Origin: Limosilactobacillus fermentum
GTDB taxonomy: Bacteria; Bacillota; Bacilli; Lactobacillales; Lactobacillaceae
Assembly (NCBI RefSeq): GCF_013394085.1
Contig: NZ_CP040910.1
Coordinates: forward strand, 586,387-650,386
Length of the DNA stretch: 64,000 nucleotides
Direction: 5' to 3'
Position 1 is the stretch's first letter, and the number at the start of each line of letters is the position of its first letter. Both the position numbers and the translations under genes were made by a program. Below, one piece after another: positions 5,455 to 32,712 of this stretch. A model generated the notes under the pieces. It made no database searches, was not told the DNA's origin, and saw only the letters and a list, made by a program, of their open reading frames with translations.

Positions 5455-5694
5455 TCATTCAATGCGATGAACGAGAGAGTAATGAATAGAGGGACCGCCT
5501 AAGCGAGGATCCGGTGGTGGAAAGGATCCCGGTACTCTGATCATGAAGGTAGCTCGTGAGCAGGAGTCCTGAATTAAGTAGGGGTTCCCGGTTCATTTAC
5601 CGTTATCAAATGGCAAAGAGGGAGTGGCAGTGGCCACTTCAAATTAGGTGGTACCGCGAGAAGACTCGTCCTATGTTAGGGCGGGTCTTTTTTT
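5455..5694 (+). ncRNA. T-box leader of valS (Val specifier GTA)
   Basis: Riboswitch that senses uncharged tRNA-Val. Stem I has an AGTA/GAA S-turn: AGTAATGA on the 5' side faces TCATGAA on the 3' side, with ATGA pairing TCAT. The triplet after GAAG is GTA (5549-5551), a valine codon, sitting just above a CGAG/CTCG helix. The T-box sequence AGGTGGTACCGCG is at 5646-5658. The competing terminator is at 5662-5694 (AGACTCGTCCTA against TAGGGCGGGTCT, then eight T). Uncharged tRNA should favour the antiterminator and valS expression. This leader fills the 306-base gap before valS. Confidence 0.92.
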
Positions 5695-30268: not shown

Positions 30269-31288
30269 ATGGAACAAGACTTTGATGACGTTCTTTCAAA
30301 TGAGGTCACTGATGACCAGGAGGGGCGAGACGAGGTTAGCCTGCGCCCCCAAACCCTGGCGACCTACATCGGCCAAGCGCGGATCAAACATGAACTAGCG
30401 GTCTACATTCAGGCGGCTAAGTCACGCGGGGAGGCCTTAGACCACGTCCTCTTGTACGGGCCGCCGGGGTTAGGGAAGACGACCCTAGCAATGGTGATCG
30501 CCAACGAAATGCAAGTGGCCATCAAAACCACCTCGGGGCCAGCGATTGAAAAGCCGGGTGACCTGGTGGCACTCTTAAACGACCTCAAACCGGGGGACGT
30601 CTTGTTCATCGATGAAATCCACCGCCTACCCAAGGTGGTCGAAGAAATGCTCTACTCGGCGATGGAGGACTTTTACATCGACATCGTGGTTGGCGAGGGT
30701 CCCACGGCCCACCCGGTCCACTTCCCGCTGCCGCCCTTCACCCTGATTGGGGCTACCACCCGGGCCGGGCTACTAGCGGCGCCTTTACGGGACCGGTTTG
30801 GGATCGTGGCCCGGATGGATTATTACACTACTACGGAGCTCAGCCAAATCATTGACCGTTCGGCGACCATCTTCAACACTAAGATTCAAGAAGACGGGGC
30901 CCACGAACTAGCCCTACGCTCCAGGGGCACGCCCCGAATTGCCAACCGGCTCTTAAAGCGGGTGCGTGACTTTGCCCAGGTGGGCGGTCAGGCGGCAATT
31001 GACCCGGCCACGGTTGACCGGGCCCTAGACTTATTGGCCGTTGATGACCAGGGGCTTGATGAGATTGACCGCAAGCTCCTCACCACGATGATCGAGCACT
31101 ACCACGGTGGCCCGGTGGGGATCCGGACGATTGCCGCCAACATTGGCGAAGAGGTCAACACGATCGAAGAGATGTACGAACCCTACCTCCTTCAGATCGG
31201 CTTTTTGATGCGTACCCCGCGGGGGCGGGTGGTGACCCCTGCGGCCTACGAACACCTCAAGATACCCTTTGACCAGGAGGAAAATTAA
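30269..31288 (+). CDS. ruvB: Holliday junction DNA helicase subunit RuvB
   Basis: AAA+ motor of branch migration, 339 residues. Walker A GPPGLGKT is at 65-72, Walker B DEIHR at about 116 and the arginine-finger region GATTRAG at about 170; the C-terminal winged helix ends with TPRGR and an acidic tail. ATG at 30269 follows AAGGAGG. The stop codon overlaps the ribosome binding region of the next gene, implying one transcript. Confidence 0.98.
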
Positions 31289-31289
31289 C

Positions 31290-32219
31290 ATGACCATGAC
31301 TAGCTACCCCCTAACGGTCCCGATGCCGGTATTAAAGCTCCCCCTCTTGACCACCGATCCGCTAACCGCCGGGGAGTTATTTTCCCACTGTGGGGTCCGG
31401 ATCGTCGCCTTACCGCTAGCACCGGCCATGGACGCCCCCGGCGCGGCCACCCTGGGGGAGGTTGGCGGCCTCGGTGCTTGGCTCAAGTGGGAAGGCCTCA
31501 CCGTTGTCCTCCCCGGGTTCGGTCAGCCCCTAACGAAGGTGAAGAAAAACAGCGAACGGGTCGGCGTCCACTACCAACTCCCCCATGGGGGCGCCAAGAA
31601 AACCGTTAACGGTGCCGAATACGAGGAGTGGTTAAAGGCAGCCCACGCTTCGGTGGCCCTTCCGTTAAGCCAGGCGCCTGACCACTACGCCCCGGTTGAC
31701 GACATCGTGCGCTCCGTGGCGGTGAACGCCGCCTGGGGCGCTCAAACGCCAACCGGGTGGGGCGTCGTGCAGGGGGCGGGGCTAAAGGCCGCCCGCCAGG
31801 AGAGCATTGCCTACTTGGTCGAGCAAAACATTACCAACTTTTACCTGGGTGGCTTTGAGCAACCACTCGAAGACGAGGAGTGGCAACGGAGTTTGGAGAT
31901 GACCACTGACTTGTTACCACCCAACGGCTTGGTGATGGTTGAAGCGGCAACGCCCTTCCGGATTCAGGCGGCGATTGAAGCGGGGGTCCACTTGATCATT
32001 TCCGATTTACCGCTGACTTTGGCGCGCCACCACCGTTACCTGCAAGAAGACCTCAGCGACGTGCCGGTCGAAGAAGGGGCGCCGCATGGTTTACCCAAGC
32101 AAGCCTGGCCCTACTTAACCGAGCGCCACGTCGGCTTAGCAACGCGCCTGTTGACCGAGGCTAACGTGAAGAACTGGACGGCTTACTTTGCGAAAAAACA
32201 CCGGGAAATGTTAAATTAA
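31290..32219 (+). CDS. Degenerate TGT-like protein, probable pseudoenzyme
   Basis: The 309-residue protein sits between ruvB and yajC, where queA-tgt lies in many bacteria, and aligns by eye with tRNA-guanine transglycosylase over most of its length. Matches are GGL and WLKWEG at 59-69 (TGT: GGLHKFMxWxG), VVQGAGLKAARQES at 159-172 (IVQGGxYxxLRxxSA), YLGGFEQPLED at 185-195 (YAIGGLSVGEP) and LLPPNG at 208. Catalytic positions are gone: DSGGFQ reads LPGFGQ, the DE of MxxDEC is lost, and the FDCVLPTR stretch reads IISDLPLT. There is no C-terminal zinc site; the only Cys is C34. ATG at 31290 follows AGGAGG. The frame is intact, so it is probably expressed with an unknown role. Confidence 0.78.
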   Translation: MTMTSYPLTVPMPVLKLPLLTTDPLTAGELFSHCGVRIVALPLAPAMDAPGAATLGEVGGLGAWLKWEGLTVVLPGFGQPLTKVKKNSERVGVHYQLPHGGAKKTVNGAEYEEWLKAAHASVALPLSQAPDHYAPVDDIVRSVAVNAAWGAQTPTGWGVVQGAGLKAARQESIAYLVEQNITNFYLGGFEQPLEDEEWQRSLEMTTDLLPPNGLVMVEAATPFRIQAAIEAGVHLIISDLPLTLARHHRYLQEDLSDVPVEEGAPHGLPKQAWPYLTERHVGLATRLLTEANVKNWTAYFAKKHREMLN

Positions 32220-32289: not shown

Positions 32290-32712
32290 GTGAACGCTAA
32301 CATGTCAAGCATTATTTTGATCGTGCTGATGATCGCCTTCATGTACTTCTTCATGATCCGGCCTCAACAGCGCCAACGAAAAGAACACCAAGCAATGGTG
32401 AACCAATTGAAGCCGGGTGATGCCGTGGTGACGATTGGTCGCTTACACGGGATGGTCCACGAAGTTAATACGGCCGAACAAACGGTAACGATTGACTGCG
32501 AAGGGATTTACTTAACTTTCGACCTGTCCGCCGTTGCCAAGGTCAACCGGGCAACGCCAGCTCCGGCCGCTGCAACGACCGTGACTGAAGCACCAGTTGA
32601 ATCAGCTTCGGCCAACAAGGAAGCGGCTGCTCAGGCTGAAGAAGAACAAGCGCCTGCTTCGGCTGCAACCGACGCTGACGACGAAAAGCCAGCGGAACAA
32701 GCCGAAAAGTAG
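32290..32712 (+). CDS. yajC: Preprotein translocase accessory subunit YajC
   Basis: Small membrane partner of the Sec translocon. The 140-residue protein has one membrane helix (about 5-23), the typical MIRPQQRQRKEH, the YajC domain with VVTIGRLHGMV at about 46, and an Ala/Glu-rich acidic tail (about 95-140) longer than in many homologues. GTG at 32290 lies 8 bases after AGAAGGGA and is preferred; ATG at 32302 is an alternative. Confidence 0.94.
   Translation: MNANMSSIILIVLMIAFMYFFMIRPQQRQRKEHQAMVNQLKPGDAVVTIGRLHGMVHEVNTAEQTVTIDCEGIYLTFDLSAVAKVNRATPAPAAATTVTEAPVESASANKEAAAQAEEEQAPASAATDADDEKPAEQAEK

Follow-up and report, generated by a model that had tools for sequence, protein, structure and literature searches.

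Here, we describe tgtL, a gene of Limosilactobacillus fermentum in which a tRNA-guanine transglycosylase (TGT) has probably turned into a selected, non-catalytic protein upon the loss of queuosine synthesis. The gene lies in a window of 64,000 nucleotides, the whole stretch of DNA that was analysed. We think it likely that tgtL represents a genus-wide set of pseudoenzymes, non-catalytic and most probably acting as binding or scaffold proteins through a new motif, YYxPVDD. With somewhat less assurance, we favour the view that tgt was neofunctionalised around this motif as a genus-specific single-copy protein, without duplication and without catalytic chemistry. A single-copy housekeeping enzyme usually vanishes once its pathway is gone, but this one has been kept in nearly the whole of a genus of gut and food bacteria. 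The conversion of a single-copy pathway enzyme across a genus, through graded intermediates and with a motif of its own, appears to be new, and literature searches found no account of a TGT-derived pseudoenzyme in Limosilactobacillus.

Family, fold and locus

The first-pass annotation of this DNA had proposed an intact 309-residue frame carrying the landmarks of the TGT family, and both the profile search and the structure comparison that it recommended bear this out with a significant family match and a TGT fold match. The Pfam TGT profile (PF01702) matches the protein at E = 3.9e-13 and 49.6 bits, above the cut-off of 26.3; on the NCBI Tgt equivalog TIGR00430, whose cut-off is 306.75 bits, it scores 27.7, far below the level of an equivalog. 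A sequence-only search for solved relatives returned TGTs at the top, with E about 0.001. The AlphaFold model of the protein, built from 27 Limosilactobacillus sequences, has a pLDDT of 92.7 and a pTM of 0.92. Among the Foldseek matches listed for this model, 50 of 50 are TGTs (best E 4.1e-18, TM 0.83), and VIA-align places it on Zymomonas TGT with a Z of 31.7 over about 300 residues, its whole length, while the model of the L. reuteri orthologue (pLDDT 93.9) reaches a Z of 44.5 to the same enzyme. The TGT-only Foldseek matches and the Z scores of the models argue that the 309-residue protein, as modelled, has a TGT-type barrel fold. A chance resemblance to TGT is ruled out by profile, fold and synteny.

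The gene occupies the usual place of tgt (Table 1). Canonical relatives have the order ruvB-queA-tgt-yajC, in which about 1.07 kb, the queA gene, separates ruvB from tgt; here the ruvB stop codon (31286-31288) is followed by the tgtL ATG one base further on, and yajC starts 70 bases past the end of tgtL. The slot had already been described as lacking queA, and indeed neither QueA nor a second TGT-family gene was found in the closed 1.89-Mb genome; a hidden canonical TGT elsewhere in it is thereby ruled out. An alternative start, TTG at 31269, would give 316 residues but lies inside ruvB. No plus-strand terminator-like site was seen between ruvB and yajC, which suggests that tgtL is probably cotranscribed with ruvB. 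The G+C content is 54%, in keeping with L. fermentum. Elsewhere, the sole Rfam match within the window is a T-box leader (5458-5676, plus strand; RF00230, 129.3 bits).

Table 1. Features of the tgtL locus, in window coordinates
Feature	Position	Strand	Description and basis
ruvB	30269..31288	+	Upstream neighbour; queA, the usual next gene, is missing
Shine-Dalgarno AGGAGG	31275..31280	+	Precedes the ATG at 31290; sequence
tgtL, putative TGT-derived pseudoenzyme gene	31290..32219	+	309 residues plus stop; profile match, model, fold match
Former DSGGFQ (catalytic base Asp, base pocket)	31509..31526	+	Now LPGFGQ, residues 74-79; alignment
Former DEC (substrate-recognising Asp, Glu, Cys)	31668..31676	+	Now SQA, residues 127-129; alignment
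Genus-specific motif H/Y-Y-A-P-V-D-D-L/I	31683..31706	+	Residues 132-139; conservation, alignment
Former nucleophilic Asp	31998..32000	+	Now Ile, residue 237; alignment
yajC	32290..32712	+	Downstream neighbour

Distribution and the queuosine pathway

Is the altered TGT peculiar to one genome? Among 50 Limosilactobacillus genomes, one per species, 46 hold exactly one TGT-family gene, scoring 36-287 bits and divergent in every case. In all 46, the gene sits immediately after ruvB and before yajC and has an intact reading frame. A canonical TGT is absent from each of these 46 genomes, so that the situation against which the first-pass annotation had guarded, sister species with a canonical enzyme and a drifting copy here, is not what the congeners show (0/46). 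As judged from the sequences, the change in TGT is genus-wide and stepwise, not particular to a single genome.

The genomes in which the gene was not found include one that is near-complete (G047), where tgtL has been cleanly deleted and ruvB and yajC lie about 100 bases apart (L123:5431-5536); the gene is therefore dispensable there. The other three are uninformative on loss, since yajC was not found either in two of them (G011, G021) and the contig ends by yajC in the third (G025).

Other Lactobacillaceae genera have a TGT in 186 of 239 sampled genomes, at E of 9e-116 or better, and none in 53; in further Bacillota, the 290 genomes having a TGT match at 5e-93 or better. In 8 of 38 sampled Lactobacillaceae genera, no sampled genome holds any TGT-family gene, so that TGT has often been lost altogether in the family. 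Many Lactobacillus have been described as lacking all queuosine enzymes, TGT included (PMC6593275). One genome of another Lactobacillaceae genus (G203) gives two TGT-family matches. The better of them falls far short of the scores of its relatives, and the cause may be an assembly error or a canonical tgt that is broken.

The QueA, QueG and QueT families were each found in 0 of the 50 Limosilactobacillus genomes, by searches that were positive in control genomes; the pathway search covered these three families. The L. fermentum genome is probably not capable of queuine use. Since tgtL still scores above the Pfam TGT threshold, a pathway reconstruction that equates a family hit with Tgt may credit the genome with this ability.

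Active-site states and the YYxPVDD motif

The roles of the residues discussed here are established for the TGTs of E. coli and Zymomonas, and their states were read from an alignment to canonical Lactobacillaceae TGTs. This alignment agrees with the earlier claim that every catalytic landmark of the window protein is altered. Next to LPGFGQ and SQA in place of DSGGFQ and DEC, both catalytic Asp are absent (Leu in DSGGFQ, Ile at the nucleophile position of FDCV) and the zinc ligands CCCH are replaced by A, H, a gap and Y, with 0 of 4 kept. In the recognition set, the Glu of GGLxVGE is Leu and the Gln of VQG is kept.

Across the 46 genomes, DSGGFQ is nowhere intact, its second Gly being kept in none and its Asp in 16. 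The Glu and Cys of DEC are likewise kept in none, its Asp in 13; the GGLxVGE Glu is lost in 45, and the base-binding Gln is replaced in 39 and kept in 7. The nucleophilic Asp is kept in 25 genomes and is Ile, Leu, Val, Tyr, Gln or Glu in the other 21. At the zinc site, 35 genomes keep three Cys and 9 keep all four ligands. All three active-site Asp are kept in 12 genomes (reuteri-type and panis-type) and all are gone in 21. These graded intermediates, from three Asp plus zinc Cys down to none, form a step-by-step series from enzyme to pseudoenzyme. The column of the DEC Glu (window 31671-31673) holds Gln in 21 genomes, Arg in 24 and Ala in 1; a replacement almost only by Gln or Arg is non-random and suggests constraint on it.

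A conserved non-canonical patch, which the first-pass annotation had suggested looking for, is apparent in the sequence. The eight best-conserved columns in the genus read Y-Y-A-P-V-D-D-L (HYAPVDDI in the window protein), with a mean pairwise identity of 0.85 in the motif versus 0.35 for the whole protein; the same position reads FFESYDYV in canonical relatives and YPADWDYA in E. coli TGT. By alignment to the E. coli enzyme, YYxPVDD lies about ten residues past the old substrate-recognising Asp, and it holds one invariant Asp plus one newly fixed Asp. The invariant Asp is encoded by GAC in 20 genomes and by GAT in 26, and since the motif codons vary synonymously, selection acts on the protein. 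Gly92, Asp137, Gly162, Gly164, Glu197, Arg200 and Asn292 are also invariant. A scan for YY[AG]PVDD[LI] over 84,980 species, with confirmation, gave 27 loci, only in Limosilactobacillus, in species that include L. reuteri, L. oris, L. vaginalis, L. gastricus, L. frumenti and L. ingluviei. Compared with bacterial Tgt (TIGR00430, EC 2.4.2.29), the protein is thus alike in fold, motif order, locus before yajC and family profile match, whereas the clade of the window protein lacks the substrate-recognition motifs, all catalytic Asp and the zinc ligands, and Limosilactobacillus lacks the queuosine pathway and carries the new motif.

In a tree rooted with canonical TGTs, a clade of three genomes (G003, G026, G032) splits first, with support 87/83. 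These three lack the nucleophile and carry an intermediate form of the motif, YYAP(Y)DY or YYATHDY; the remaining genomes have the full PVDD form. Unordered parsimony gives two changes of nucleophile state on the RuvB tree and the tgtL tree alike, one of which would be a regain of Asp on the rooted tgtL tree (three losses if regain is excluded); the RuvB tree is weakly supported at its deep nodes, and long branches leave fine placements unsure.

Could tgtL still encode an enzyme? The barrel would then act by exchange or hydrolysis on some base or nucleoside that is not preQ1, and the Asp-Asp pair of YYxPVDD would have taken over catalysis. The nucleophilic Asp kept in 25 genomes speaks for this, as does the Asp pair close to the old recognition Asp, and with all three Asp kept in the 12 reuteri-type and panis-type genomes, some members might be enzymes of other specificity. 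However, selection continues despite replacement of the nucleophile in 21 genomes and of the base-binding Gln in 39, and the clade that branches first lacks both the nucleophile and the full motif. We consider an altered enzyme unlikely.

Our expectation is lower still for a factor that binds tRNA without catalysis and holds tRNAs whose G34 is unmodified, similar to QTRT2 but acting alone. TGTs are tRNA-binding proteins, and QTRT2, the accessory subunit of eukaryotic TGT, is described as a non-catalytic member of the family. The predicted TGT fold of tgtL, whole over the full length, would suit such a factor, and the two proteins would be alike in lacking catalysis. However, the two Arg of PTRxARN, which we take to be anticodon-loop contacts in the complex of Zymomonas TGT with tRNA, are kept in just 8 and 6 of the 46 genomes, so that ordinary tRNA binding is not supported. 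Consistent positive charge is not seen either (the window protein has a pI of 5.8), and whereas QTRT2 forms a heterodimer with the catalytic QTRT1, a catalytic partner is present in none of the 46 Limosilactobacillus genomes with their single TGT-family gene. The first-pass annotation had offered a non-catalytic RNA- or protein-binding factor; the selected pseudoenzyme in this proposal is supported, the RNA binding is not.

Selection and a possible role

The tgtL gene evolves faster than ruvB, yet it is clearly under purifying selection. Its dN/dS (Nei-Gojobori, close pairs) is 0.06-0.29, far below 1 as the first-pass annotation had anticipated for a functional pseudoenzyme; for ruvB in the same genome pairs it is 0.00-0.05. 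The values for tgtL thus exceed those for ruvB by a factor of roughly 4 to over 20, which indicates that the constraint is loose. Canonical TGT gave a dN/dS of 0.004 (one pair, dS 0.63); tgtL at a similar dS gave about 0.1. For genome pairs lacking all three Asp, pN/pS is 0.14 (G010/G008), 0.16 (G026/G003), 0.20 (G012/G001), 0.27 (window/G016, with synonymous sites saturated) and 0.32 (G001/G042), with Fisher p of 5e-11 to 3.5e-48. When random substitutions were simulated at the divergence of the window gene from G016, 0 of 1000 trials were stop-free. Neutral decay is rejected on three counts, the dN/dS values, the frames that stay intact and the conservation of the motif. A slowly decaying relic, dispensable, still read through and bound for loss as in G047, would fit that clean deletion and a dN/dS above that of ruvB and of the one canonical TGT pair, but it is contradicted at the genus level by frames intact in all 46 genomes at genus depth, by the simulation, by the low dN/dS with its p values and by a new motif that is now the best-conserved stretch, and we hold it to be very improbable.

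How might a TGT have become the non-catalytic protein that we favour? An ancestral chromosomal tgt of the Lactobacillaceae would have given rise to the genus-wide orthologous set, and queuosine synthesis has been lost in the genus (queA, queG and queT absent) with tgt retained. Substrate recognition was lost, and the catalytic Asp and the zinc site went separately in several lineages, as alignment and tree show, while purifying selection kept a folded TGT-type barrel, as the dN/dS values and the confident models show. The losses at the active site and the zinc site, together with continued selection, point to a function shared across the genus that needs neither base exchange nor zinc. This function is most likely binding or scaffolding by way of the YYxPVDD loop, close to where the active site used to be, with the invariant Gly-x-Gly loop and the Glu197/Arg200 pair taking part as well.

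Finally, DpdA is an active enzyme of 7-deazaguanine DNA-modification systems. As a TGT-related DNA 7-deazaguanine transferase (PMC6884629), it resembles tgtL in belonging to the TGT superfamily and in having a role beyond tRNA queuosine; by description it is set apart, as tgtL has lost the catalytic residues and none of the queuosine genes searched for is present. The genus profile scores 230 bits with bacterial TGT, 189 with QTRT1 and 76 with QTRT2; tgtL therefore derives from bacterial TGT, and a eukaryotic QTRT2 origin is rejected.
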